Below are positions 297-17,841 of a stretch of 25,685 bases of DNA, piece after piece. Source of the DNA: a virus; the IMG/VR virus record IMGVR_UViG_3300035661_000304, positions 1 to 25,685 of that record. One strand, written 5' to 3'. Position numbers and translations under genes: made by a program. Under the pieces are notes generated by a model. The model was not told the origin of the DNA. It ran no database searches and saw only the letters and a program-made list of their open reading frames with translations. Within the stretch, counting starts at the first letter, position 1. Each line of letters opens with the position of its first letter.

Positions 297-2405
297 TTAT
301 TTAAGTGCTGAATGTAAAATTGTACGAATTTCACTATCTGGTAATGGAGAATCTAACATTAGGTTCATTGATACAAGATGTTGTTCTATGTCTGAACTGC
401 TCATTCCTAAATCACGCATCATTTTAACTATTCTAAAACTAGAGTCATTTCTGTTCCCTTCAGCTGTTGTCAAGAAGAACCATCTATATATGCCAGCAAC
501 TCTATCATCTAAATTTAGAATCTCTACATCTTCAATTTTATTCATAAGCTGTTTACTCGTCTCCATTGAAGGTATACACTTAGTGATATCAAATAGCTTA
601 TTAGTTTTATTTACCCATATTTCTCCAGTTTCATTTGTATACCAAAGTCGGGATACATTTCTAGTTTGTCTATCGTATATTTCAACTCCAAGAATTTTTG
701 CTACGTTATCCATCATATCTTTATGTTGCTCTGATGTAACAAAATATTCTTTGTTAGTAGGGATTACTATTCTATATCTATCCCCTTTTCCTTCTTTCTG
801 ATGGCTCTTAGTTGTATATATTAAGCACAAATAATCTTTTAATAGTACCTTAGCAGTTGATAGAGGCAATCCTGAATCAATATCAATAGCTATCATATTT
901 TGTCCAGATATAAAACTTTCTGCTCTCCTATGCCCACGAGGTGCATTGTCACTTGGTTCAAAGTGAGCCAATGTGAAACAACCTACATTTGATTTAACTA
1001 AACTTTCTACTGAATGACCATCTCCTAAGAACGGTATTCTCATCGGCTTGAAGTCAATCGATTGTTCTATGTTCTTGAGTTTTGTAGAACATATGGATAC
1101 AATCATCTTGTTCAGGTTTGTTAATGGAAGAGGCTCTGCTCTATAAACTTTAAGTGCATCTCCTTCTTCAATAACGATACAGCCTTGTGATATAGCATAT
1201 TCTTTAGTAAGCCCCATATAGTCGTTGAACATTTTAATATTAGATAATCCACGAATTTCTTGTATTAAATCAGGTCGTCCTTTTGGAGATATTGATATTC
1301 TGTTGAATATATCAATATGGATAGGATATCCTTTTACTATCTGCTCCATACAAGTGTTAGTTCTATTTGCAAAATCAATGGCATATTCCATATGTTCCTC
1401 AGAAACTATTGCACTAAAATCAGCCATAGCTATAATACAAGCTAACCTTTCAATCTTAGTCTCTGAACCAATGATAGTCTGCTTTATCTGATTATGTAGG
1501 TCTCCATTATTGTATTCATCAATAAGATTTGATATATAGTTACTTAGAATTAAAGATGCTTCTTCCGATACTATAATTTCTCTTCCTGCCTTACTAAGGT
1601 CAAAGAACATTGTACTTAGTTGCATCATTTCGTTTTTATCAGAACTACTCATAGTCTTATATTTGCTATTCTTGATAATCTTATCTGTACTTTGCATATA
1701 AAAAAAACTACGTCTACCAAAGCCTTGAATTATCTCCTCTTTGAGCTTATCAAGTTTATTTTGTACATTCAAAATTCCGTATGGTGCACCGTGAAGAGAT
1801 ACATTTACTGGAACTCCCTCTACATCGAAATACCCACCTGATGCAGTAGTTTTTCCTTTTGCAGTTCCTTTAGTCCAAGCTTCTTTAATACGTGATAACA
1901 TATCAGCATTTAGCAATATATCTGAAAGTTCTCCGTGAAATATATTTACACTGAATGTAGGCAATATACTCATTCCTTGCATTAGCTTCTGGAATCCTTC
2001 TGGAGTTCCATCTATTGAGGTTCTAATTCCACTAGGTAAAAGATAGTTTGGATTAGCGATATCAATTTCAGTATATTCAGCTACCTTTGAATACTCTTTA
2101 TTGAACCTAACCTTAAGATTTTTACGATAGCTTGATGAAATATTACTAAATATACTTTCTGCATTATCCATTGTAAAATCTTTACCTCTACCACTTGGAG
2201 CTAATATAACACCAAAGTAATTCACTATTCTACTTGTATCATCATCATCATAACGCTTGTATCTAACACCCTTTACCATATTAGCTATAACTGATAGCTG
2301 ATAAAATATTGCACTCTCAACTATTTCGTCAGCTATATAGTCTCTGGATTTATCTACTATATAATTTTCCATATGCCTTATAAGTAATGGCTTACTCATA
2401 GTCAT
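297..2405 (-). CDS. Helicase-primase fusion: N-terminal DUF3987-like ATPase, AEP primase, C-terminal PriCT
   Basis: Replication protein of about 702 aa that probably unwinds DNA and makes primers. Numbering below counts from a TTG six bases upstream. The N-terminal half has a Walker A-like APSGRGKD (71-78), a Walker B-like FHGELSDIL (158-166) and GFGRR (230-234), resembling DUF3987-type ATPases. The C-terminal half has archaeo-eukaryotic primase motifs: AIDID (508-512), TTKSH (533-537) with RYRIVIP (545-551), and D580 followed by SRLWY. Residues 635-704 look like a PriCT-1 domain (GNRNDSSF, then helices). An ATPase ahead of the primase reverses the usual order. The start is ATG 2405, with AGAAG nine bases upstream; ATG 2399, which overlaps the previous stop, is an alternative. 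It is the last gene of the leftward block. Domain calls rest on motifs only. Confidence 0.85.
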   Translation of the reverse strand: MTMSKPLLIRHMENYIVDKSRDYIADEIVESAIFYQLSVIANMVKGVRYKRYDDDDTSRIVNYFGVILAPSGRGKDFTMDNAESIFSNISSSYRKNLKVRFNKEYSKVAEYTEIDIANPNYLLPSGIRTSIDGTPEGFQKLMQGMSILPTFSVNIFHGELSDILLNADMLSRIKEAWTKGTAKGKTTASGGYFDVEGVPVNVSLHGAPYGILNVQNKLDKLKEEIIQGFGRRSFFYMQSTDKIIKNSKYKTMSSSDKNEMMQLSTMFFDLSKAGREIIVSEEASLILSNYISNLIDEYNNGDLHNQIKQTIIGSETKIERLACIIAMADFSAIVSEEHMEYAIDFANRTNTCMEQIVKGYPIHIDIFNRISISPKGRPDLIQEIRGLSNIKMFNDYMGLTKEYAISQGCIVIEEGDALKVYRAEPLPLTNLNKMIVSICSTKLKNIEQSIDFKPMRIPFLGDGHSVESLVKSNVGCFTLAHFEPSDNAPRGHRRAESFISGQNMIAIDIDSGLPLSTAKVLLKDYLCLIYTTKSHQKEGKGDRYRIVIPTNKEYFVTSEQHKDMMDNVAKILGVEIYDRQTRNVSRLWYTNETGEIWVNKTNKLFDITKCIPSMETSKQLMNKIEDVEILNLDDRVAGIYRWFFLTTAEGNRNDSSFRIVKMMRDLGMSSSDIEQHLVSMNLMLDSPLPDSEIRTILHSALK

Positions 2406-2568
2406 CTGCAAATACTTCTATTGACTTAATAAGTGTTATGTTATAATAAAATGTAGCTTCATCGCCCATATCAAATATAGCCCATTGACCATCTGTATCC
2501 CATTTTACCAATGTTGAAAATTCATCAAATTCCTTTGATGTTCCATCTACGAAATTAACTGTTACCAT
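2392..2568 (-). CDS. 58-aa hypothetical protein between initiator-like and primase genes
   Basis: A short ORF starting MVTVNFVDGT and ending FADDYE; family not recognised. It is acidic, with a likely beta-rich fold (alternating V/F/I stretches). Support is contextual. Its ATG overlaps the stop of the upstream winged-helix gene (ATGGTAA). AAGGAA lies five bases before the start, and its stop overlaps the start region of the helicase-primase gene. It exactly fills the gap between the two genes. It may be an accessory subunit of the replication proteins, but that is inference from position. Confidence 0.7.
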   Translation of the reverse strand: MVTVNFVDGTSKEFDEFSTLVKWDTDGQWAIFDMGDEATFYYNITLIKSIEVFADDYE

Positions 2569-2951
2569 TGTACTTCCTTATCTTTTGAATTATTATTTAG
2601 CTTAATATATTGTTCAAACTCTTTAGGTATTATTGGACTATACGCATATGGCATTGAACCGCCACCTTCCAAAAATACTTCAGGATGAACTATTTTAATA
2701 TGACCATCAGCTTCAAGTTCACGAATAATTTTATTGAATGTCTTTCTTGTTATTCCAATATATTTTGCCCAAAACTCTTGAGTTTTATGAGGTGTTTTTG
2801 TATTGCCACGTCCAAGTGACTCCATAGCTATCCCAAGAAAAACACTTATTTTAGATGGAGAATTTATATTATTATAAGCATAATCCATCATTATACCTAC
2901 GTTCTGATAGCAATCCATTTTACTACATTTAGAACCAATTTTATTTACCAT
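2562..2951 (-). CDS. Winged-helix DNA-binding protein, second tandem copy (putative replication initiator)
   Basis: A 129-aa protein with one predicted winged helix. The segment QEFWAKYIGITRKTFNKII (about 68-86) is the helix-turn-helix, followed by a wing-like stretch with GGGSMPYAYSP. It matches its upstream neighbour along most of its length (YQNVGIM/WQNIGIM, DGHIKI, AYSP, final QW), so the two are tandem duplicates. Single-wing proteins of this kind resemble phage O-like or plasmid Rep N-terminal domains. Position between iteron-like repeats and a primase supports an initiator role; a repressor is possible. GGAGG precedes the ATG by seven bases, and the ATG overlaps the upstream stop (ATGGTAA). 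Confidence 0.75.
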   Translation of the reverse strand: MVNKIGSKCSKMDCYQNVGIMMDYAYNNINSPSKISVFLGIAMESLGRGNTKTPHKTQEFWAKYIGITRKTFNKIIRELEADGHIKIVHPEVFLEGGGSMPYAYSPIIPKEFEQYIKLNNNSKDKEVQW

Positions 2952-3337
2952 TGTTCATCCTCCATTTCTATTATTGTTTCAGGTTCATTCTTTTTACTCT
3001 TAATAAATATCCTAGCATTCTTTGAAAACACTGGACTATAAGAATAAGCATTTGAACCACCTGTTGCTACATATTCCCTCTGATGGTTTATTTTAATATG
3101 ACCATCTCTTGCAAGTTCATTCACTTGCGTATTAAATGTATTCTTAGATACTCCAAATAATTTAGACCAATATTCTTGACTTCTATGCAATGTTTTTCTT
3201 AATCCATATCCGAAAGACTCTTCAACTAAACAAGTAAAAATTTCTCTATTTTTGCGTTCTATATTTTTCCTTGCATATTGTCGCATAATACCTATATTCT
3301 GCCAACCGTTATTTGATGACTGTTCTACTATACTCAT
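2945..3337 (-). CDS. Winged-helix DNA-binding protein, first tandem copy (putative replication initiator)
   Basis: A 130-aa paralogue of the next gene downstream. Its helix-turn-helix is QEYWSKLFGVSKNTFNTQV (about 59-77), followed by DGHIKI and a GGSNAYSYSP wing. The extra N- and C-terminal residues are charged and probably flexible. The start lies inside the 3' end of the ribbon-helix-helix gene (29-bp overlap), with AGAAGG ten bases upstream. Being the nearer copy to the repeats at 3562-3652, it is a candidate iteron-binding protein. No catalytic motif is present, so it should act by binding DNA. The function is inferred from fold and context. Confidence 0.75.
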   Translation of the reverse strand: MSIVEQSSNNGWQNIGIMRQYARKNIERKNREIFTCLVEESFGYGLRKTLHRSQEYWSKLFGVSKNTFNTQVNELARDGHIKINHQREYVATGGSNAYSYSPVFSKNARIFIKSKKNEPETIIEMEDEQW

Positions 3338-3470
3338 CTTTAATCAACCTTCTTATCTCATAGCTCATAGAGTTTGAGTTTTTTTCAGCCAATTCTTTAA
3401 GCATACGTAGAACATCATCATTCAATGTAAAAGTAACAGCTTTACTTGCCTTGATTAATTTTGTTTCCAT
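3309..3470 (-). CDS. Ribbon-helix-helix (CopG/Arc-like) DNA-binding protein
   Basis: A 53-aa protein with the classic short fold: a beta strand (KAVTFTLND, 10-18), helix A (DDVLRMLKELAEKN), and helix B after SNSMSYEIRRLIKDEY. Such proteins bind palindromic operators as dimers, often to repress their own operon or a replication gene. The start is ATG 3470 because AAGGA sits five bases upstream; a longer in-frame version from 3500 lacks a site. It is the first gene after the repeat region 3513-3700, and the 12-bp palindrome at 3688-3699 is a possible operator. Confidence 0.8.
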   Translation of the reverse strand: METKLIKASKAVTFTLNDDVLRMLKELAEKNSNSMSYEIRRLIKDEYSRTVIK

Positions 3471-3498
3471 TATATTCCTTTTAGTTTTGGTATGAAGC

Positions 3499-3504
3499 AT
3501 TGTA
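3499..3504 (-). promoter_or_regulatory. Possible leftward promoter for the RHH/winged-helix genes
   Basis: On the minus strand TACAAT lies about 30 bases before the ATG at 3470. Upstream sequence is A/T-periodic (three 11-bp repeats) with no clear -35 box, a layout seen in Campylobacterota promoters. Iteron-like repeats lie just upstream, so bound initiator could repress it. Confidence 0.35.
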
Positions 3505-3512
3505 GCGTAATA

Positions 3513-3545
3513 AATATAAAACTAATATAAAACTAATATAAAATA
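3513..3545. repeat. AT-rich 11-bp tandem repeats (possible DNA-unwinding element)
   Basis: AATATAAAACT occurs at 3513-3523 and 3524-3534, with a third partial copy at 3535-3544. The stretch is almost purely A/T and directly abuts the 22-bp repeats. AT-rich direct repeats next to iterons are typical of theta-type origins, where the duplex first opens. It could also simply be promoter DNA. Confidence 0.6.
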
Positions 3546-3563
3546 TTTCTTATACCTACTTAC

Positions 3564-3622
3564 CAATTTTTGGGATATACATAATCAATTTTTGGGATAT
3601 ACCTAATCAATTTTTGGGATAT
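3564..3622. repeat. Three iteron-like direct repeats at a 22-bp period
   Basis: The 15-mer CAATTTTTGGGATAT occurs exactly at 3564-3578, 3586-3600 and 3608-3622, each start 22 bp after the last (two helical turns). The spacers are similar (ACATAAT, ACCTAAT). Exact repeats at a helical period are the signature of iterons bound by an initiator on one DNA face. The adjacent winged-helix genes are candidates for the binding proteins. Confidence 0.8.
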
Positions 3623-3635
3623 GCGGTATTTCTTA

Positions 3636-3652
3636 TACCAAAAATTGGTATC
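3636..3652. repeat. Inverted, palindromic fourth iteron-like copy
   Basis: ATACCAA-AAA-TTGGTAT is a perfect 7-bp inverted repeat. Read on the minus strand it matches the TACCAATTTTTGG core of the repeats at 3562-3574. In iteron plasmids an inverted half-iteron pair often serves as the operator for initiator autoregulation; that role is inferred here. Confidence 0.55.
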
Positions 3653-3670
3653 TCTATTATATACCTACTT

Positions 3671-3700
3671 AAAGGGATACCTTGCTAAAGGTATACCTTG
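3671..3700. promoter_or_regulatory. Paired operator-like palindromes
   Basis: AAAGGGATACCTTG (3671-3684) and AAAGGTATACCTTG (3687-3700) are near-identical copies 16 bp apart. The second contains the perfect 12-bp palindrome AAGGTATACCTT. The 11-mer ATACCTACTTA occurs at 3552-3562 and again at 3661-3671, flanking the whole repeat block. This is a plausible site for the ribbon-helix-helix dimer. Confidence 0.45.
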
Positions 3701-3716
3701 AAATAAATGAGAACCA

Positions 3717-3747
3717 ACCAACACTACCGCTTACGCTTCGTGTTGGT
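3717..3747 (-). terminator. Hairpin downstream of the SF2 helicase gene
   Basis: ACCAACAC (3717-3724) and GTGTTGGT (3740-3747) form an 8-bp stem with a 15-base loop, 32 bp past the helicase stop. There is no strong T-run after it in the leftward direction, so termination may be weak. It could instead be a structural border of the repeat region. Confidence 0.4.
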
Positions 3748-3778
3748 AAAAGGAGGGGGTATGAGTTTATTAATATAT

Positions 3779-5302
3779 TTAAAACCATCTATAAGAATCA
3801 TTGTTTGCATTCTCGATTAGAAAGTCAATAAAATAAAATAGACTTGCAATCTTCTTAGGCTGAGTAGTCTTTCCACTTTGGACTATTGCTTTGGCTCTAG
3901 TCTTAAATGCTTTAGTAAATCTACTTCTATGTTCTGGGTACTGGTTCAACTTACTTTCCCATTTATCAGAAATCCATCTTGGTAATTGAACTCCATTCTC
4001 TCTGCCACTGTAAAGAGTATCTATCAATACAATGAGTTCGCATAGCTCACTCATATCTTGGCTCGACTCAAATAATTCTATTAAGTCTTTCAAATTACCT
4101 TTTCTTTTTCTGTCCTTAACTTCTTCTATCATCATTTTAATTTGAAGGCGTGAATTAAGCTCTACAACTGATTCTTTATCTGAGACAAGTAAATCTATTC
4201 CTGAGATATTATCGTGGCTTCTAGCTATGTTTTTGTTAGTTCTATCGCTATGTTCTTGTATAGGTTCATCATACAATCCGTGAGTAGTTGTATTTTTTGC
4301 AAAATCCAACAATAAAGTATCTATTTTTGTATGATGAAGTCTACAACCTCTACCAACTTGTTGTAGATATTTTCTCTTGCTCATTGTTGGATTACAATTC
4401 ACAACACAACTGACACTTGGTTCATCCCATCCAGTAGATATCATTCCGATACTACACAAAACTTGTAATTCATCATCTAAGAATTGTTTAAATGTATCAT
4501 CATTAATCTTGGAACTAATCTTGCTATGTACTAAACCAGATTTAATACCATTGCTAGTGTATACTTGGTTCATAGCTTCAGCGTGTTCTATACCCGTACA
4601 AAAAACAATAGTCTTTCTTTCTTTAGCTAAAGTATTCCAAGATTCAAAAACTGATTGATTATATTCATCTGTATTTATTATTTTTGATAGTTGAACTTCA
4701 TTATAATCTCCAGCTTTTACATTTACTTCACTAAAATCTAGTTTCTCACTAAACCCTGCAACGAATGTTCTTATTCTAGTTAGATATCCTTGCTCTGTAA
4801 GCTCTTTTATTGTTAAACCTTGAATAATGTCTACCCCTTCAATAAAAAAGCCATCAGCGTCAATAGGAGTAGCACTAAAGCCTATTATTTGATTAGGTTC
4901 TAATCTATCTATTACATCATTCATACTTTTTGTATCAAAACTAATATGACGTTCATCAATTATCAAAACATCACACTTTAAATCTATATGTGAACGTGCG
5001 TATAAAGTTTGTTGCATTGCTACACTAACCTTTGAACCTATATATTTATCCATTCCTGCTTTATACACATTATGTTCTATATTTAGGTTTGTGAATAGTT
5101 CTATAAGTTGTGGGATTAGCTTTGATATATTTACGAGTACGCAAACAGTTAGGTCTTGGTTCACAAAGTCTTGAACCAACTTTGCAATTATTATAGACTT
5201 TCCACTTCCAGTAGGGGAATATATCAATTTCTCTTTACCGTTGTCCTCTATTTCTTTGTGTACATTATTTACTATATCCTCTTGGTATGGTCTTAGCTTC
5301 AT
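3779..5302 (-). CDS. SF2 DExH-box DNA helicase
   Basis: A 507-aa ATP-dependent helicase/translocase with a complete SF2 motif set: a Q-like LRPYQ (3-7), motif I PTGSGKS (30-36), motif II DERH (116-119), motif III SAT (143-145), IVFCTG (232-237), motif V STGWDEPS (289-296) and motif VI QQVGRGCR (314-321). The DERH box and overall length resemble phage UvsW/RadD-like or type III restriction-type helicases. A likely role is remodelling replication forks or recombination intermediates. The last 150 residues are unassigned and charged. A leader hairpin (5348-5369) separates it from the upstream gene. AAGGA precedes the ATG. The exact substrate is not visible. Confidence 0.9.
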   Translation of the reverse strand: MKLRPYQEDIVNNVHKEIEDNGKEKLIYSPTGSGKSIIIAKLVQDFVNQDLTVCVLVNISKLIPQLIELFTNLNIEHNVYKAGMDKYIGSKVSVAMQQTLYARSHIDLKCDVLIIDERHISFDTKSMNDVIDRLEPNQIIGFSATPIDADGFFIEGVDIIQGLTIKELTEQGYLTRIRTFVAGFSEKLDFSEVNVKAGDYNEVQLSKIINTDEYNQSVFESWNTLAKERKTIVFCTGIEHAEAMNQVYTSNGIKSGLVHSKISSKINDDTFKQFLDDELQVLCSIGMISTGWDEPSVSCVVNCNPTMSKRKYLQQVGRGCRLHHTKIDTLLLDFAKNTTTHGLYDEPIQEHSDRTNKNIARSHDNISGIDLLVSDKESVVELNSRLQIKMMIEEVKDRKRKGNLKDLIELFESSQDMSELCELIVLIDTLYSGRENGVQLPRWISDKWESKLNQYPEHRSRFTKAFKTRAKAIVQSGKTTQPKKIASLFYFIDFLIENANNDSYRWF

Positions 5303-5347
5303 AGCCTTTTCTTCCTTTAAAAGTAAAATTTTGGATTAATTTCCATT

Positions 5348-5369
5348 GAACCAACTATAAAGTTGGCTC
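5348..5369 (-). promoter_or_regulatory. Leader hairpin with GAGCCAACT/AGTTGGTTC arms
   Basis: In the leftward transcript GAGCCAACT and AGTTGGTTC pair over 9 bp (one G-U) around the loop TTAT. It lies 46 bp before the helicase start, between two genes. Hairpins of the same design occur at 7359-7382, 8074-8097 and 19792-19816. It may be an RNA-processing site, a weak terminator or a protein-binding site. Confidence 0.6.
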
Positions 5370-5402
5370 TAAGTAAATCAAAAATTTACATCTTTTTTAG
5401 TA

Positions 5403-5579
5403 TTAAATTTTGTTTTTTTGAATTTCTTTCCATATAGACTTGTAGGCTTCTAATGCTATTTTTTTATCAGAAAAAGTCCATTTTTTGATAAAATTAGCTC
5501 CAGAAAATGAGCTAATTTCGTGCGGGAATTTGTTGAAATCAATAGTCAAACTATCAATTTTTTTAATTTTATCTTTCAT
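5403..5579 (-). CDS. 58-aa hypothetical protein
   Basis: A lysine-rich short ORF starting MKDKIKKIDS and ending EIQKNKI; not recognised. It has an N-terminal strand-rich part and a C-terminal helix (KKIALEAYKSIWKEIQKN). Its ATG overlaps the upstream stop by 4 bp (ATGA), a strong sign of translational coupling. The ORF fills most of an otherwise empty 270-bp gap. Its positive charge contrasts with the acidic protein upstream, so a complex between them is conceivable. Confidence 0.65.
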   Translation of the reverse strand: MKDKIKKIDSLTIDFNKFPHEISSFSGANFIKKWTFSDKKIALEAYKSIWKEIQKNKI

Positions 5580-5995
5580 TTTTTAGATGTTGGACTACTA
5601 AAAAGTTCAGAAATTAGTTTTCGTACATCTTTACACAAATCTTCTCTTGATGAAACAACACACACATTCGATACCTCTAAATAATATGAGTAAATACGCA
5701 AATCGATAGTTTCTAGGTTGTTTAATGTACAAATTAGAGTTATATCTATTTTATCCTCTTCATAATCTTCAGATGGTTCTGTGTCGTCAAAGTTAATTTC
5801 TACATCTTCAAAATCAATAGAAAACTCATAGTCTAAAACTTTAATAGTATTCATAAAACCATAAATCGATTCTATTTTATCTACAACAGATGAACAATTA
5901 AGCGTATTTAAAATTTTATCAAATATCTCGTTATATTCGTTTATGTTTTTTATAACTATTTTATTATCTACAATCATTTTTTTCGTAATCATCAT
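5576..5995 (-). CDS. Acidic hypothetical early protein (139 aa)
   Basis: The protein is not recognised. The middle is strongly acidic (DFEDVEINFDDTEPSEDYEEDK, in pieces around 61-82), flanked by beta-rich segments (TLICTLNNLETIDLRIYSYYLEVSN). There is no membrane segment or catalytic motif. ATG 5995 and ATG 5992 are adjacent; AAAGGA is better spaced for 5992. Small acidic early phage proteins sometimes mimic DNA or inhibit host enzymes, but nothing here proves it. Confidence 0.7.
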   Translation of the reverse strand: MMITKKMIVDNKIVIKNINEYNEIFDKILNTLNCSSVVDKIESIYGFMNTIKVLDYEFSIDFEDVEINFDDTEPSEDYEEDKIDITLICTLNNLETIDLRIYSYYLEVSNVCVVSSREDLCKDVRKLISELFSSPTSKK

Positions 5996-6020
5996 ATTTC
6001 CTTTATTTTTTTTTATTATA

Positions 6021-6734
6021 CTAAAACCAAGTTGAGCTTATGGAATTGTATTTTTTACCATAATTGCAAACGTGGTTATAATCACAATAATATTTACATC
6101 TCATATCATTTCCAAACGTATTTTCACATTTAACGGGTATTTTTTCATCACCATTTAACATAGAAAAAACTTTTTCGTAATATTCATCAACCATTTCAAT
6201 CAATTTTTCCTCTTTAATATGAGGTATATTCACTTCCTCAATAGCGTTTGGTTGGTTTGGCTTAACTTCCGTTTGGTCTTTTAATCCCATAAAAAGTAAA
6301 AGGGAACTTTCACTACCCCATCCAAACATTAGATTATATAGATTTACTTGTACACCATACGCATCAGCTAGTGGGTCTTTCAAAATAACTGTATGCTTAT
6401 ATACCTTAGTAAGTTTAACGTCATAAATAACCTTATTTATAGGGTCTATAATATCAGGTTCACCCGTCAAATTTGCCCCTTTTTTGGTTTTATAATTAAG
6501 CCTTTTTCCTACTTCATACGTGCCTATTTTATGGTCTAAAATGATTTGTTTCATTCCTATATCAAAAATATTCCCTAGCGTAGCTTGGCTGATACCCGAT
6601 TTTTTAGGCTCAAACTTACGTTTTAAATAGCCGATTAATGGTTCATTGTCTGCCACCTCTGAAACACTTACCGTATTTAAGCTGTTTTTTGAACCACTAT
6701 AAAATTCTATTCCTTCGATATCATCTAATAACAT
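6021..6734 (-). CDS. Cas4/RecB-like PD-(D/E)XK nuclease with four-cysteine cluster
   Basis: A 237-aa nuclease. The catalytic core is GEPD (91-94; D94), DVK (105-107; D105, K107) and the helix GVQVNLY with Q129 and Y133, matching the QxxxY motif of RecB/Cas4 exonucleases. Four cysteines at 203, 213, 217 and 223 (C-x9-C-x3-C-x5-C) sit at the C-terminus, where Cas4 and AddB bind an iron-sulfur cluster. The usual N-terminal Cas4 cysteine is absent, so all four ligands are C-terminal. A likely role is DNA end resection in phage recombination or replication, alongside the SF2 helicase. There is no CRISPR array nearby, so a CRISPR role is unlikely. The start overlaps the upstream stop (TGATG). Confidence 0.85.
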   Translation of the reverse strand: MLLDDIEGIEFYSGSKNSLNTVSVSEVADNEPLIGYLKRKFEPKKSGISQATLGNIFDIGMKQIILDHKIGTYEVGKRLNYKTKKGANLTGEPDIIDPINKVIYDVKLTKVYKHTVILKDPLADAYGVQVNLYNLMFGWGSESSLLLFMGLKDQTEVKPNQPNAIEEVNIPHIKEEKLIEMVDEYYEKVFSMLNGDEKIPVKCENTFGNDMRCKYYCDYNHVCNYGKKYNSISSTWF

Positions 6735-6967
6735 CAGATTAATTCCCCTTTTTTATTGTAAGTTTCTAAGCTTATATTTTTAACTCTTGACAGCTTGTTG
6801 TATTCTGCCTGAAGTCGTGCCTTCTCTTTTCTATGTATCTCTGCTTTACTGTATAGGTTTATTATTTCGTGCCTTAGTTTCTGTAGGTCATCAATAGAAA
6901 TTTCTATTCTCTTAATTCCGTCATAATCTGCAAGATTAATCGCCTGCAATATGTTTTCAACTTCCAT
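6734..6967 (-). CDS. 77-aa coiled-coil hypothetical protein
   Basis: Small, charged and probably helical. Residues 27-60 (DLQKLRHEI through KARLQAEYNKL) have heptad-like spacing of hydrophobic residues, suggesting a coiled coil. The family is not recognised. The start lies within the previous gene (11-bp overlap). The stop overlaps the nuclease start by one base, so it is translated with the nuclease and could be its partner. Confidence 0.65.
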   Translation of the reverse strand: MEVENILQAINLADYDGIKRIEISIDDLQKLRHEIINLYSKAEIHRKEKARLQAEYNKLSRVKNISLETYNKKGELI

Positions 6968-7316
6968 TGCTTTGCTTTAAGTAAGTTACCCTATTTGAAG
7001 GAATAAAAGAAGGAGTCTCATTCACGAAGGGCTCACACCCTGCAAAATAATCGCTTCTAAGACTGTCATAAATTCTAACTATAGCATAGATTCCAAACTC
7101 ATCGTTTTGCATAATAGAAACTAGCTCTCCGTCCTCTGGCTTCCAATGATTAAATTTTTTTACAATAATCATACCATTGTGAAGGATATATTCAGTTTGT
7201 AATATATCCTCATCACACTCGCTATCGGCTCTATATCTTACTTTATCTATTCCTGCGATTTGATAAGGTTTGCCATCGACTCTCACCCAATCGGTAACTT
7301 TAAATTGTGCTTCCAT
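6957..7316 (-). CDS. Conserved-looking hypothetical protein, SH3-like (119 aa)
   Basis: It starts MEAQFKVTDWVRVDGKPYQIAGID and continues with alternating hydrophobic strands. NHWKPEDGELVSI sits near 56-68. The pattern VRVDGKPYQI followed by WKPEDGELV suggests a small SH3-like barrel and recalls accessory phage proteins of unknown function. AAAGG lies seven bases before the ATG. It follows a promoter-like box (7419-7424) and a leader hairpin (7359-7382), so it may start its own transcript. Confidence 0.65.
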   Translation of the reverse strand: MEAQFKVTDWVRVDGKPYQIAGIDKVRYRADSECDEDILQTEYILHNGMIIVKKFNHWKPEDGELVSIMQNDEFGIYAIVRIYDSLRSDYFAGCEPFVNETPSFIPSNRVTYLKQSNGS

Positions 7317-7358
7317 TCTGTAGCCTTTATTTTGATTTATGGATTTAATTCCATATTG

Positions 7359-7382
7359 GAGCCATATTTTTATTTATGGCTC
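7359..7382 (-). promoter_or_regulatory. Leader hairpin with GAGCCATA/TATGGCTC arms
   Basis: A perfect 8-bp inverted repeat (7359-7366 with 7375-7382) around an 8-base A/T loop, 43 bp upstream of the 119-aa gene. It carries the GAGCCA/TGGCTC arms seen in three other gene leaders. Confidence 0.6.
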
Positions 7383-7417
7383 TATATAGATTAAAAATAT
7401 CTATATGATAGTTTCTG

Positions 7418-7429
7418 GATTATATAATC
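7418..7429 (-). promoter_or_regulatory. Leftward promoter-like box in a 12-bp palindrome
   Basis: GATTATATAATC is a perfect palindrome. Read leftward it contains TATAAT (7419-7424), but there is no recognisable -35. Transcription from here would give a leader of about 95 bases containing the hairpin at 7359-7382. The symmetry also fits an operator. Confidence 0.4.
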
Positions 7430-7445
7430 AACACGCCCTATAAAT

Positions 7446-7691
7446 TTAATTATCTTCTTTTTCACTGTATAACCTCTCTATGATGCAATCAAATAGATAT
7501 TGCAAGTTTTCATCTAGTGACAAATACTTATCCCAATATATAGATATATTATCACTCATTAAAAACTCTTCGCTTGCTGTTATGTTATATATCCTATAGT
7601 CGTCCTCTTCACTTAGTCCATAATCTTTGAGATTAATTTCAATGATAGGATAAGTTTTCATCTCTTCAAATTGTTCAAATAGTGTTTTCAT
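7446..7691 (-). CDS. Small acidic hypothetical early protein (81 aa)
   Basis: Not recognised. Acidic throughout (for example LSEEDDYRI and SEKEDN) with a predicted mixed alpha/beta fold and no membrane segment. AAGGAG lies eight bases upstream of the ATG. It sits 12 bp after the 104-aa gene and before the palindromic box, at the promoter-proximal end of the leftward block where phages keep host-takeover genes. That role is a guess from position. Confidence 0.7.
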   Translation of the reverse strand: MKTLFEQFEEMKTYPIIEINLKDYGLSEEDDYRIYNITASEEFLMSDNISIYWDKYLSLDENLQYLFDCIIERLYSEKEDN

Positions 7692-7703
7692 CTTCTTAGC
7701 TCC

Positions 7704-8018
7704 TTAAAATACAGTGTACAAGATAGTATTATCTGAAGTTTTAACTGCCCACGTATGTTTTTGTAGATAACTAAAAACTTCCATTAGTTCATCTTCTTCG
7801 TCCTCTATTTCTATGCTGTAGTTTCTTCTAATCTCTTCAGCTGGCTCTTCGCTGAATATTCCACAAATATATGGCACGTCTAACTCTACGTATTCGCATT
7901 CTTGCTCATTATAATCTAATATATACTCATAAGCTTTTAAGCTGAATTGATCTTCTCTGTCGTGAGATTTAAACTCTTTTTGTAATTGTTCTGCTGTATT
8001 AATTTTTTTGTATAACAT
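7704..8018 (-). CDS. Conserved phage/plasmid-type hypothetical protein (104 aa)
   Basis: I recognise the layout of a widespread small acidic phage/plasmid family of unknown function. HDREDQFSLKAYEYI (about 19-33) is followed by YVELDVPYICGIF (43-55), an acidic stretch (IEDEEDELMEV) and YLQKHTWAVKT...TILYTVF at the C-terminus. No enzymatic motif is visible. AAGGA sits before the ATG after an unusual run of A residues. The leader has two hairpins (8053-8065 and 8074-8097). Early position and acidity would fit a host-interaction protein. Confidence 0.7.
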   Translation of the reverse strand: MLYKKINTAEQLQKEFKSHDREDQFSLKAYEYILDYNEQECEYVELDVPYICGIFSEEPAEEIRRNYSIEIEDEEDELMEVFSYLQKHTWAVKTSDNTILYTVF

Positions 8019-8052
8019 TGTATAATCCTTTTTTTTTTAGAGTTTAAATTTT

Positions 8053-8065
8053 GTTGCTTTGCAAC
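8053..8065 (-). promoter_or_regulatory. 5-bp stem, 3-base loop hairpin in the leader
   Basis: GTTGC-AAA-GCAAC read leftward, 35 bases before the 104-aa gene. The short stem with a 3-base loop recalls hairpin promoters of N4-type RNA polymerases, but no such polymerase is in the window. It may just be a leader structure. Confidence 0.35.
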
Positions 8066-8073
8066 TACTCCAT

Positions 8074-8097
8074 AAAACCCACTATTAAGTGAGCTTT
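8074..8097 (-). promoter_or_regulatory. Leader hairpin AAAGCTCACT/AGTGGGTTTT
   Basis: The two 10-base arms pair with two G-U wobbles around the loop TAAT, in the gap between the 39-aa and 104-aa genes. Like the hairpin at 5348-5369 it has a 4-base A/T loop and is followed by ATGGA in the transcript. Confidence 0.55.
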
Positions 8098-8107
8098 AGT
8101 AATAGTT

Positions 8108-8227
8108 TTATTTAATTTCTATTATGCAATAATTTAGATTAGTCAAAATGACCATCAAAGATATTACTTTTTCTAACTTGACCTCAACTGTATTTTTGAC
8201 TCCGTGTCCTTCGTAAGTGATACTCAT
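8108..8227 (-). CDS. 39-aa first protein of the leftward block
   Basis: A short ORF starting MSITYEGHGV and ending YCIIEIK; not recognised. The support is its control region: GAGGAG lies seven bases before the ATG, and a near-consensus promoter at 8258-8286 puts it about 25 bases from the expected transcript start. The C-terminal half is hydrophobic (VISLMVILTNLNYCIIEI, 21-38), which could be a membrane segment or a buried strand pair. As the first-expressed product it is a candidate host-takeover protein. Confidence 0.6.
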   Translation of the reverse strand: MSITYEGHGVKNTVEVKLEKVISLMVILTNLNYCIIEIK

Positions 8228-8257
8228 TTTGTAACTCCTCTTTCTTTTGATGTACTA

Positions 8258-8286
8258 ATTTTATCAAATTTTATAAAGTTTGTCAA
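8258..8286 (-). promoter_or_regulatory. Strong leftward sigma-70-type early promoter
   Basis: On the minus strand TTGACA (8281-8286), a 17-base spacer and TAAAAT (8258-8263) form a near-consensus host promoter. It lies 31 bp before the 39-aa gene and points into the whole leftward block. It is the best promoter seen in the window. Confidence 0.8.
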
Positions 8287-8334
8287 GCTTTTTTAGTAAA
8301 TTTATAAAATAATTTAATCTACATATTGAACAGC

Positions 8335-8357
8335 AAAAAAGAAGTGTTTAATCACTT
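8335..8357 (-). terminator. Weak leftward terminator upstream of the early promoter
   Basis: Read leftward, AAGTG-ATTAAA-CACTT is followed by CTTTTTT. The stem has only 5 bp, but the T-run is good. It would end leftward transcripts arising in the non-coding region before they reach the early promoter. Confidence 0.4.
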
Positions 8358-8387
8358 TATCATACATCTTGTATCTATAAATAGAGA

Positions 8388-8485
8388 TATCATCATAAAC
8401 GCTATACGCTAGAAATGATTACCCCTTGTAAATGTACACACTGAAAACAGTTCGTTGCATATACGGCAGATATAGAGCATCTTAT
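8388..8485. repeat. 98-bp element, copy A (candidate structured RNA or control site)
   Basis: It aligns without gaps to 8780-8877, with 62 of 98 positions identical by my count. Conserved blocks are TATCAT, GCTAGAAATG, ACCCTT-like, TCGTTG, AGATATA and CATCTTAT, separated by variable blocks at constant spacing. It contains ACTG-AAAA-CAGT. Its function is unknown. Confidence 0.7.
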
Positions 8486-8661
8486 TTTAAACAATAAGCT
8501 AAAAAGTATCTATTTTAAGCAATTAGTAAATAATGTTTACTTTTTAACTCTTGTTTATAGTTGCATAAGATAGCCATAGTTATAATAAAATGAAACTAAT
8601 GTAAATAAATGTTTTGTTTTCTTCAATGGTTTGATTGATTGTTTATTTCGATGAGCTGCTA

Positions 8662-8739
8662 TCTCGTTGGCTCACTAGATAGATATAACTTACTCTTTGT
8701 ATATTGTAGTAGAGTTTAGTATATTCTCTCGTTGGCTCA
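8662..8739. repeat. 13-bp direct repeat TCTCGTTGGCTCA
   Basis: Exact copies lie at 8662-8674 and 8727-8739, 65 bp apart, and each contains the over-represented 8-mer TTGGCTCA. A third 8-mer follows at 8771-8778, just before element B. The left copy can also pair TGAGC (8652-8656) with GCTCA (8670-8674). Confidence 0.7.
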
Positions 8740-8779
8740 GATAATAAAGGAATGAAGATAACCCCCTGATTTGGCTCAG

Positions 8780-8877
8780 TATCATATATAAGCTTATGCG
8801 CTAGAAATGTTTAACCCTTATAAGTACACGCTTAAGATTGATATCGTTGTACCTCGATGAGATATAAGCCATCTTAT
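8780..8877. repeat. 98-bp element, copy B
   Basis: Partner of 8388-8485, with the same length and orientation. Here ATATAAG-CCAT-CTTATAT near the end forms a perfect 7-bp hairpin, and GTACACG can pair with CGTTGTAC across a bulge. The corresponding stems in copy A are weaker. There is no ORF across it in either direction. Confidence 0.7.
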
Positions 8878-8967
8878 ATGTGTAAATAGTGTGATAAAGG
8901 CTATAAATAGGGATTGTTCAAATAATGTTTGTGATTTAGGGTATGTTATAAGGGGTAGATTAAGTGG

Positions 8968-8985
8968 TAATGCCTAAAGGCATTA
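8968..8985. other. Hairpin TAATGCC-TAAA-GGCATTA
   Basis: A perfect 7-bp stem with a 4-base loop and no T-run. It overlaps the -10 region of the leftward promoter at 8982-9008, so a transcript from that promoter could begin within it. It may be an operator. Confidence 0.5.
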
Positions 8986-9008
8986 TATCATAAGTAGAAA
9001 ATTGTCAA
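8982..9008 (-). promoter_or_regulatory. Second leftward promoter in the control region
   Basis: On the minus strand TTGACA (9003-9008) and TATAAT (8982-8987) match consensus exactly but are 15 bases apart, shorter than ideal. A transcript would cross elements B and A and reach the terminator at 8335-8357 without meeting a gene, consistent with a non-coding RNA. Confidence 0.45.
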
Positions 9009-9267
9009 ACTTTTAAACTTGTAAAATTTACCAAAGAATATCTACACTAGAAAAATAGGAATTACCGAACAACTTGTTAAGGGTACTTTAACACCGCACT
9101 TATGCACTGACACCACATCATCATTAATCAAAGTACGTTGTGTGTGTGTGATGTGCTGTCCTCTTCTAGTTATGCTTGTATGGACTCTGGACTTGATGAG
9201 ATTGCTTTTTTATGGATGGATGTTAGGTATGGGGGATGGGATTTTGGTGTGGTTGTTTTGTTGAATA

Positions 9268-9331
9268 TTGTACTTAAAAAAAATGCTATAACTTTTTTCG
9301 ATATGCGTTTTGTACTTAAAAAAAATGCTAT
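9268..9331. repeat. 22-bp direct repeat, 42 bp apart
   Basis: The same 22 bases (TTGTACTT, eight A, TGCTAT) occur at 9268-9289 and 9310-9331. The first 17 bases of the block TTTTGTACTTAAAAAAA recur at 11696-11712 inside the 196-aa gene. They may be regulatory sites for the late genes or remnants of a duplicated coding segment. Confidence 0.6.
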
Positions 9332-9413
9332 GAGTTTTTTAAAATAGAAAACTTAAACTAGTCTTACGTTTAGCAAAATGTATTTTAAAATTTGAACCTT
9401 TTTTGGTATTGAT

Positions 9414-9442
9414 ATTCCCACTATCATAAAGATAATGGGAAT
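9414..9442 (+). promoter_or_regulatory. Leader hairpin before the terminase genes
   Basis: ATTCCCA (9414-9420) pairs with TGGGAAT (9436-9442), and TATC pairs with GATA inside after one mismatch, leaving the loop ATAAA. It ends 10 bp before the AAGGAGG of the first late gene, so it could affect translation or mark the 5' end of the late transcript. Confidence 0.55.
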
Positions 9443-9462
9443 GAAGAAGAAAAGGAGGAAGT

Positions 9463-10083: not shown

Positions 10084-11579
10084 GTAAGATAGATATATCA
10101 TTCATAGATAACTATGTTCCTAAAGCTAATAGTGTTAAATTCTTTTCATTCTGTAATATGATGTGGGAAGATGATGATAATACTACTCCATTGGCTCACT
10201 ATTACTTTGCGGATGAGGTTATGACTTCTGAAAAAAGATTTTCTGCTCAATGTCATCGTGGATTTGCAAAGAGTACCATAATCTCACATCGTATGCCATT
10301 ATTCATAGCAACTTTTGGAGTGCTTCCTAGTTTTGGAGAAGTAAATAATTGTTGTATATTAAGTGATACATTTGACCAAAGTGAAGCTCATAGAAAGACT
10401 ATGATGAGCTACTATGATAGAAGTGATGTATTACAGTCATTCCTAAAGGTAGAACGTTCTGTTGAAGGAGAAGTTGTATTTATAAATAATAAAGGGCATA
10501 GGACTAGATTCTTCTGCAAAGGTACTGGTCAATCTTTTCGCGGTTCTAACTGGGAAGGTCATAGACCAGACCTAATTATTGGAGATGATATTCTTAATGA
10601 TGATATTCTTTATAACAAAGATTTAGTAACTAAACAAAAGACTTGGTTCTCATCAGTAGTAAGTAAGGCAGTAAATATTAGACACTATAAAATGATTATG
10701 ATTGGTACTCCATTATTAGAGAATGACTTACTTGGAATGTTTGCACAAAGTCCTAGTTGGCATAATGTAAAGTTACCAGTATGTCAAGAGTTTCCAGTGC
10801 CAAAGAGTGAAATAAAATCGTTATGGGCTGATAGATTTACACCAGATGCAATATATGAAGAGTATTTAGAGAATAAATCTATGGGAGAAGAGAGTACATT
10901 TTTTAGGGAAATGATGTTACAAGTAGTTAATGAAGAAACACAAATATTTAAAAAAGAATATATAAAGCACTTTAAGATAAGTGATATTGCAAAAGAGAAA
11001 CATAAGTATAATTTCTTTACAACTATGGACTTAGCAGTAAGTAAAAAGGAAAAAGCAGATAGAACTTGTATTATGACAATAGCAGTAAATAGTGATAACC
11101 ATTGGTTTATTGTAGGATTAGACTTTGGAAGATTTACTCCAACTGAGGTTTTAGATATGCTATTTAAGCAAGTTAGAAGATGGAAGCCACTAGAAGTAAG
11201 AGCAGAAAAGGCAGCATTGCAGCAAGTATTAGGACACTTTATTGAAGAGAAAATGCTAAAAGAAAACACTCACTTTTATTATAATTCATTAATATTAAAT
11301 TCAACAACAAAAAAAGAAGTAAGAATATTAGGACTTGAACCAAAGTTAAAAAGAAGAATGGTATGGTTTGCTACTGATGATAAGATAGATGAGTTTGCAT
11401 TATTAGAAAAAGAACTATTGAGCCAAACTAAAGAAACAAATACGAGTGGTCACGATGATGGAATAGATACTCTTGCTTCTTTCTTGGACGAAGGGTTTAT
11501 AGTAACTCCAAATGATTATTCAAAAGACTATAATGGAGAAATAGTACAACAAGAAATAATAGATAGTACAGTTTTCTGA
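10080..11579 (+). CDS. terL: Terminase large subunit (packaging ATPase/nuclease)
   Basis: A 499-aa DNA packaging motor. The ATPase half has a Walker A-like HRGFAKST (59-66), a Walker B-like LIIGDD (165-170) with DD rather than DE, and the coupling-type motif IGTP (208-211). The nuclease half has the RNase H-like acids: D317 in TTMDLA, E376 in RAEKA, and D459/D460/D463 in GHDDGIDTL. Length and motif spacing fit podovirus-type terminases. It works with the small subunit at the portal. The gene is intact; a TATAAT promoter follows 11 bp after its stop. Confidence 0.93.
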   Translation: MSKIDISFIDNYVPKANSVKFFSFCNMMWEDDDNTTPLAHYYFADEVMTSEKRFSAQCHRGFAKSTIISHRMPLFIATFGVLPSFGEVNNCCILSDTFDQSEAHRKTMMSYYDRSDVLQSFLKVERSVEGEVVFINNKGHRTRFFCKGTGQSFRGSNWEGHRPDLIIGDDILNDDILYNKDLVTKQKTWFSSVVSKAVNIRHYKMIMIGTPLLENDLLGMFAQSPSWHNVKLPVCQEFPVPKSEIKSLWADRFTPDAIYEEYLENKSMGEESTFFREMMLQVVNEETQIFKKEYIKHFKISDIAKEKHKYNFFTTMDLAVSKKEKADRTCIMTIAVNSDNHWFIVGLDFGRFTPTEVLDMLFKQVRRWKPLEVRAEKAALQQVLGHFIEEKMLKENTHFYYNSLILNSTTKKEVRILGLEPKLKRRMVWFATDDKIDEFALLEKELLSQTKETNTSGHDDGIDTLASFLDEGFIVTPNDYSKDYNGEIVQQEIIDSTVF

Positions 11580-17048: not shown

Positions 17049-17347
17049 ATTATGATGAAAATAATGTTCCGTTGCTAGGTAGAACTAATGATGATTTTGC
17101 TTTATCTATCGATGTAGGAGAGTTAATTGGTTCACGTATTCCAAAGATGTTTATTGGTTCAATTGATATATCATCTTATTTTATAATCACGGGTCCAAAT
17201 ACTTTTATGCTAAATATAAACGCTTCTAAGATGACTATACTCGGAGTTGGTACGTTTCAATATGATGTTATTTTAGAGATAGATGCAGATAATAATAAAT
17301 TCTTATTCGGTGGTATATTTATAATCAACAAAGGAGTTACGCCGTGA
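17045..17347 (+). CDS. Beta-sandwich hypothetical tail protein (100 aa)
   Basis: It starts [23 protein letters not shown] and ends [13 protein letters not shown]. Alternating hydrophobic residues throughout suggest a beta-sandwich. Small proteins of this pattern ([11 protein letters not shown] near the end) are commonly encoded just upstream of collagen-like phage fibres, with unknown function. It overlaps the spanin stop by 4 bp, with AGGAG upstream, and the collagen-like gene's GTG start (GTGA). Confidence 0.65.
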
Positions 17348-17841
17348 TAACATTAAATACAGAGACAAATACTATTACATTATCTCCAGTAGGTAGTCAG
17401 GGGGCGGCTGGGCCTGCTGGTGCTACTGGACCGATTGGACCTATTGGATTAACTGGACCATCTGGAAGTCAAGGCCCACAAGGACTTATAGGACCAACTG
17501 GACCGCAAGGACAAAAGGGAGATATTGGTGTAACGGGTTTAACTGGACCAATAGGGCCGCAGGGTCCAATAGGTAATACTGGGGCAACTGGGGCACAAGG
17601 AGTTCAGGGAGTACAAGGTCTAACTGGACTTACTGGTGCAACTGGAAGTCAAGGGCCTCAAGGTATACAAGGCCCTATTGGTTCTACGGGTGCAACTGGT
17701 GCTACTGGTAAAGGCGTAGTAGTAGGTGGAACAGCTGGGCAATTATTGTCAAAGATAGATAGTACAGACTATAATACGCAGTGGATAGATGCACCAGCAT
17801 CAACAAATAATCAACTTAATCAACTTATAGGAGTAATATAA
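17344..17841 (+). CDS. Collagen-like tail-fibre protein
   Basis: A 165-aa protein. After a short N-terminal strand region, residues 17-124 are about 36 uninterrupted Gly-X-Y triplets, which would form a rigid triple helix. The C-terminus [16 protein letters not shown] and [10 protein letters not shown] is the usual trimerising tail of phage collagen-like fibres. The start is GTG 17344, with AAAGGAG seven bases upstream. Local G+C is raised by glycine and proline codons. The role is probably a fibre or spike shaft. Confidence 0.88.

Follow-up and report, generated by a model that had tools for sequence, protein, structure and literature searches.

A candidate iteron-type replication origin beside a winged-helix gene in a small N4-related phage

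The viral record analyzed here (25,685 bp without host sequence, hereafter the window) harbors at positions 3513-3700 an array of repeats that is real and well beyond chance. Because the array is combined with easily melted DNA and a lambda O-like gene in a phage for which no DNA polymerase A, B or C was detected, the element is a probable start of DNA copying. With moderate confidence, we favor its interpretation as the theta-type origin of a small podovirus that is related to N4 and relies on the DNA polymerase of its host; the iterons would be bound by the winged-helix protein wH1, while a small RHH protein would exert a separate regulation.

The comparison covers a sister phage (G001, 38,187 bp, with which G002 agrees fully in this region) as well as a distant 93-kb relative (G003). 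The sister extends past both ends of the window and, should its gene order apply here too, the genome would amount to about 42 kb when complete.

Anatomy of the repeat array and its surroundings

The features of the region are listed below, with the strand where one applies.

297-2411, minus strand: DNA primase of the N4 gp43 kind (PHROG 2135, E=3.6e-72; PF08708)
2392-2568, minus strand: conserved 58-aa protein with no assigned function, 77.6% identical in the sister
2562-2951, minus strand: wH2, 129-aa paralogue of wH1, 39% identical to it
2945-3337, minus strand: wH1, 130-aa winged-helix protein and candidate iteron-binding initiator (PHROG 428; predicted fold)
3309-3470, minus strand: RHH (Arc/CopG-like) protein of 53 aa, candidate operon regulator (PF01402, E=1.3e-5; PHROG Arc-like repressor, E=4.6e-6)
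3471-3778: intergenic region with the whole element, at 308 bp the widest gap between genes of the leftward block 297-8018
3499-3504, minus strand: possible, weak second -10 box TACAAT, directly before the RHH gene
3511-3545: putative DNA-unwinding element with AT-rich 11-bp tandem repeats (3513-3523, 3524-3534, partial 3535-3543)
3559-3629: iteron array with 22-bp units at 3564-3585, 3586-3607 and 3608-3629
3633-3651, minus strand: inverted fourth iteron copy, forming a palindrome of 17 bp (arms ATACCAA / TTGGTAT)
3656-3661, minus strand: putative -10 box TATAAT of promoter P1 (RHH-wH operon), kept in the sister
3672-3699: two 12-bp palindromes, AAGGGATACCTT / AAGGTATACCTT, with 16-bp spacing beside P1, candidate RHH operators
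3717-3747: possible terminator following the helicase gene, a stem-loop formed by ACCAACAC...GTGTTGGT
3779-5302, minus strand: SF2 (ResIII/DEAD-type) DNA helicase, upstream of the element (PF04851, E=2.5e-23; PHROG 16, E=8.1e-68)

According to the gap table, the remaining gaps of the leftward gene block measure at most 129 bp. Within the wide gap, the 15-mer CAATTTTTGGGATAT recurs exactly at 3564, 3586 and 3608, i.e., with the strict 22-bp period given in the preliminary description, and the inverted fourth copy reported there was recovered at 3633-3647 with two mismatches. When up to two mismatches are allowed, the whole window contains only these four matches, as opposed to an expectation of 0.2, and four were reached in no shuffle. 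The first iteron copy reaches left to 3559 and thereby forms the near-palindrome TTACCAATTTTTGGGATA; like the inverted copy it is a near-complete palindrome centred on CCAATTTTTGG, and the middle two iterons retain chiefly the right half. Overall, 39 repeated 11-mer pairs occur within a 200-bp stretch, compared to a maximum of 5 in 2,000 shuffles of the same stretch and of 7 in the best 200-bp stretch among 20 whole-window shuffles. Each genome carries a single array. The exact 15-mer scan of viral contigs yielded single, scattered matches, presumably due to chance, and an Rfam search returned no match.

The flanks of the array likewise bear out what had been described. On one side, the AT-rich 11-mer AATATAAAACT is present in tandem at 3513-3534, followed by a partial third copy up to 3543, and the stretch 3511-3545 represents the lowest-stability 35 bp of the window according to nearest-neighbour energies (rank 1 of 25,651); when stability is scanned over 50 bp, a single other locus is weaker. 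On the other side, the palindromes AAGGGATACCTT (3672-3683) and AAGGTATACCTT (3688-3699) are the sole copies with at most one mismatch in the window. No good -35 box was found for the putative P1. The stem at 3717-3747 does form, is devoid of a T tract and has an unexceptional folding energy. A search across 3300-3900 for the DnaA box TTATNCACA revealed no 9-mer with one mismatch or less.

Replication genes, namely those for the primase, the SF2 helicase and a nuclease, lie on both sides of the element. The primase features a PriCT-1 domain and an N-terminal DUF3987-like stretch, and its relative is annotated as the N4 gp43 homologue in Schitoviridae; the "helicase-primase" named earlier is this primase, any helicase activity of it being hypothetical. 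The neighboring RHH gene is present as claimed, though its start is most likely the ATG at 3470 behind AAAAGGA, rather than 3500. The 58-aa protein gave no family match. With respect to the sister, the genes found only in the window at their place are wH2 and two coding for proteins with no assigned role (5576-5995 and 6957-7316), while the sister (L003) features insertions of approximately 76 bp just right of the element, at window position 3784, and of approximately 210 bp downstream of the primase (L003 about 10296-10506).

The winged-helix protein wH1 and the iterons

The predicted structure of wH1 is a winged helix (mean pLDDT 74) comprising helices 11-25, 28-43, 54-60 and 65-77 and a strand wing. 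All four winged-helix sequences of the family match PHROG 428 (replication initiation protein), albeit weakly (best E 1.2e-5), and three of the four show weak matches to O-like or other initiator families; the weak O-type matches include PHROG 678 (O-like, 0.0021) and PF04492 (0.049, below cut-off). For each of the four, models of phage replication initiators fit better than those of regulators; in general Pfam, the winged helices come nearest to a Crp-like HTH. Moreover, a structure search of viral proteins (Foldseek) matched wH1 to a model of the lambda gpO N-terminus at 3.3e-4, and named replication proteins are also among the top matches. Being weak, these matches to PHROG and by fold could be given by any winged helix. 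The fold search of the PDB retrieved generic winged helices only, and querying PDB sequences with the winged-helix profile gave no significant match. Neither wH1 nor wH2 has a Pfam match to Rep_3, and wH1 has none to RepA_N. At the sensitivity applied, relatives of wH1 were absent from 50,697 phage and 72,556 plasmid records; none was found in the genome collection contigs either, nor any relative of wH2 in viral contigs. Judged by profile and predicted fold, wH1 appears to be akin to phage initiators and to the DNA-binding part of lambda O, and not to plasmid Rep_3.

The architecture of 22-bp spacing, inverted copy and AT tract recurs in the sister, where, however, each of the four iteron cores is altered in the same way, from CAATTTTT to CAAATTTT, which constitutes a T-to-A core change; in the inverted copy GGTAT became GGGAT, matching the other copies. 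Identity to the sister amounts to 94% in the AT repeats (33 of 35 bases of 3513-3547 kept), 92% in the stem-loop region (3716-3752), 88% across promoter and 16-bp palindromes (3652-3700), where TATAAT is kept, and 75% in the iteron array. The proteins diverge to different degrees: RHH is identical at 51 of 53 residues (dN 0.016) and the helicase is 96% identical (dN 0.017), the primase has a dN of 0.036, whereas wH1 retains 95 of 130 residues (73%) with a dN of 0.187, roughly tenfold that of RHH or helicase. Among the exchanged wH1 residues are some of the predicted recognition helix (T70S, N73K, A76S, R77D) as well as of the wing (R87N, E88G, Y89R, A91E, T92G). Since RHH has hardly changed while wH1 diverged together with the iterons, the repeats track wH1 in this sample of one close pair and one distant relative, which points to wH1 as the candidate reader of the iterons and makes the 16-bp-spaced palindromes, rather than the 22-bp repeats, the likely RHH sites. 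Because dS of wH1 is raised as well, recombination could contribute to its divergence.

Regarding the duplicated winged-helix genes, the paralogues do exist in the window, yet they are not a conserved part of the module, as the sister and G003 each possess one winged-helix gene. wH2 is missing in the sister, where its best match is the sister wH1 (47.5%), and is therefore dispensable; being not conserved, the duplication is not needed. A split two-domain Rep composed of wH1 and wH2 was rejected on account of the single winged helix of the sister.

In G003, the wH1 relative shares 62% identity with wH1, whereas portal (34%), terminase (22%), primase (28%) and helicase range from 22-34%; the wH1 gene may hence be horizontally exchanged between phages. 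As in the window, an RHH gene overlaps wH1, but the two RHH proteins show no detectable similarity and are not alignable. Directly upstream of the RHH-wH1 genes lies an array of at least four 15-bp palindromes, CCGTAAAATTTACGG, spaced by 23-50 bp and found nowhere else within the 93 kb. No exceptionally unstable DNA adjoins this array, and the module is located about 36 kb from the primase. Repeats with a 10-bp period (AATAGACATC) occur downstream of the wH1 relative (L002 6667-6726).

Proposed origin function and competing readings

In the origin that we favor, wH1 would occupy the inverted copy as well as the palindromic 22-bp iterons, in helical phase, and the complex would open the adjoining AT-rich stretch 3511-3545. 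Subsequently, the N4 gp43-type primase encoded by the same operon would prime synthesis there, together with a host or phage helicase, and the host polymerase would extend from the primers. RHH, in turn, would bind the 16-bp-spaced AAGGTATACCTT palindromes at P1 and thus limit transcription of the operon, which would pass through the iterons, while wH2 would be an optional paralogue. The analysis itself establishes the anatomy and how far it is kept, the linked change of wH1 and iterons, the low stability of the AT tract and the failure to detect DNA polymerase A, B or C; binding partners, melting, primase recruitment and origin activity are inferences.

Terminase, portal and primase identify the window as distant kin of Schitoviridae (N4-like phages). 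The latter employ PolA and a giant virion RNA polymerase. Here, the search that detected PolA in the N4-like phage Piffle (6.8e-44, positive control) gave neither PolA, PolB nor PolIII alpha for window, sister or G003, and a giant virion RNA polymerase was not seen, no ORF of window or sister exceeding 976 aa. Since no such DNA polymerase was detected, the phage probably uses that of the host. The likeness to Schitoviridae encompasses the gp43-type primase, a Sak4/AAA-type protein, SSB and the related terminase and portal, while the differences lie in the two polymerases not seen here and in the lack of a wH1 relative in any phage record. The sister also carries Sak4-type, SSB, RusA, ThyX and methyltransferase genes; host assignment via the phage methyltransferase gave two weak matches only.

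The main and strongest rival is a purely transcriptional operator array, in which wH1 (and wH2) together with RHH would bind the 22-bp and 16-bp repeats to regulate their own primase operon, any origin being located elsewhere. We consider this somewhat unlikely, but it draws on several observations: in the window, the sister and G003 alike the array immediately precedes the RHH-wH gene pair, it is flanked by putative -10 boxes, the winged helices have Crp-like HTH as their nearest general Pfam match, and the G003 module is not adjacent to the primase. The placement of the array, which fits an operator too, and that of the G003 module also count against an origin, as do the lack of exceptionally unstable DNA beside the G003 array, the lack in wH1 of the C-terminal part by which lambda O recruits the helicase, the absence of DnaA boxes from the region, and a cumulative GC skew whose turning point lies near 8.3 kb, along with transcription direction, and not at 3.6 kb. 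On the other hand, an array in strict helical phase that ends at the lowest-stability DNA of the window, and of which there is one per genome, is not readily accounted for by an operator, nor is the better fit of all four family members to phage initiator models; in addition, an integrase was not found and nothing indicates a lysogeny switch, a candidate that was rejected for this lack of an integrase. The large noncoding region 8019-9462, as a possible alternative origin, holds few and weak repeats.

RHH proteins often bind repeat arrays, and RHH is the nearest gene. It could accordingly be the main iteron binder, the array then being a centromere-like partition site or an RHH operator as for plasmid RHH partition proteins; we regard this as very improbable, given that 51 of the 53 RHH residues are identical between phages with differing 22-bp repeats and that the G003 protein is not alignable. 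A partition site of type Ib (ParA/RHH) was dismissed since no ParA ATPase (AAA_31) is encoded in the window, the sister or G003. The AT-rich 11-bp repeats, for their part, might constitute the periodic AT upstream tract of a Campylobacter-type promoter without a -35 box instead of an unwinding element. Promoters with a periodic AT tract in place of the -35 box are described in Campylobacter jejuni (PMC3656092), and both the 11-bp period and the -10-like TACAAT next to it (3504-3499, minus strand) would conform to them. Nevertheless, the phage host is not assigned, the iterons would be left unexplained and promoter and unwinding roles are compatible with each other, so that the AT tract 3511-3545 may double as part of a promoter; as a replacement of the unwinding element we deem this improbable. 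A packaging site was rejected for the window, where TerS/TerL are 6 kb off across the divergent junction, but is possible in G003, in which the module lies some 3 kb from the terminase genes.

Beyond an origin as such, wH1 and its palindromic iterons might represent an exchangeable replicon cassette whose specificity is rewritten as a unit and which moves between distant N4-related phages, enabling polymerase-less phages to use host replisomes, with wH2 acting as a competitor or decoy against iterons of rival phages or satellites. This extension is speculative and, in our estimation, unlikely.

Known replicons and further elements of the window

The nearest known kind appears to be a lambda O-like or PLE-like replicon. 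In lambda, about four iterons are served by a winged-helix-type initiator and the host polymerase takes over synthesis; lambda O recruits the helicase through its C-terminal part. The present element shares with oriLambda (PMC7466680) about four iterons beside an AT-rich tract, a winged-helix-type candidate initiator and the probable use of a host polymerase; it comprises four copies with a palindromic core and adjoins the lowest-stability 35 bp. However, oriLambda lies within the O gene while the array here is intergenic and upstream, wH1 (130 aa) is a stand-alone DNA-binding domain without the C-terminal part corresponding to the helicase-recruiting part of O, and the candidate partner is an N4-type primase instead of lambda P. 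In PLE satellites, the DNA-binding domain of the initiator and the semi-palindromic iterons covary between relatives (PMC8263062). The intergenic array of three semi-palindromic iterons and the joint variation of initiator and iterons are common to both (PMC8263062), though PLE is a satellite of phage ICP1 with a RepA_N initiator, whereas here the phage itself encodes a primase, and wH1 shows no match to RepA_N.

Rep_3 plasmids (R6K, pPS10, F) typically contain three to seven iterons, 22 bp long in R6K and pPS10, an AT-rich unwinding region and an inverted site near the rep operator (see PMC4980987). Of the direct repeats that such replicons have in helical phase, 17-22 bp in length, the window offers three of 22 bp. 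By contrast, their Rep combines two winged-helix domains per chain while wH1 and wH2 have one each, and here a Rep_3 match and DnaA boxes in the region are missing and the repeats are palindromic. The likeness to an iteron-type origin that had been proposed from the sequence is thus strengthened by iterons adjoining the lowest-stability DNA, by the fit of wH1 to initiator families and by an architecture that is kept while the array changes together with wH1, but a strictly plasmid-style unit is not upheld: Rep_3, an intergenic DnaA box and wH1 relatives in plasmid records are all lacking, and the repeats are palindromic after the fashion of lambda O or PLE RepA sites. In the Sulfolobus plasmid pRN1, orf56, which codes for a small RHH repressor, is the first gene of an operon that includes a primase-helicase (PMC4234260), similar to the RHH gene at the head of the primase-containing operon here. 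A 100-nt stem-loop that follows the replication gene is the presumed origin of pRN1; a counterpart downstream of the primase was rejected, as no long inverted repeat exists at 1-300 or in the sister.

If correct, the favored interpretation as an origin would provide a compact origin for an N4-related branch without the usual phage DNA polymerase, a natural case in which initiator and binding sites change in concert, for which documentation otherwise comes mainly from satellites such as PLE, and an example of a lone DNA-binding domain doing the job of the two-domain initiator of lambda.

Several further elements of the window were recorded. Two related noncoding elements, 8375-8485 and 8767-8877, are 392 bp apart within the 1.4 kb of noncoding sequence from which transcription diverges and share GCTAGAAATG.TTA.CCCTT.TAA.TACAC ... 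CATCTTAT; the pair has no Rfam match, the second is conserved in the sister, and a phage RNA or regulatory element is possible. Upstream of the late genes, a 31-nt direct duplication, TTGTACTTAAAAAAAATGCTAT..., occupies 9268-9298 and 9310-9340. Finally, a collagen-like protein with Gly-X-Y repeats (GPTGPQG...) is encoded at 17344-17841 among variable tail-region genes, in the highest-GC part of the window.
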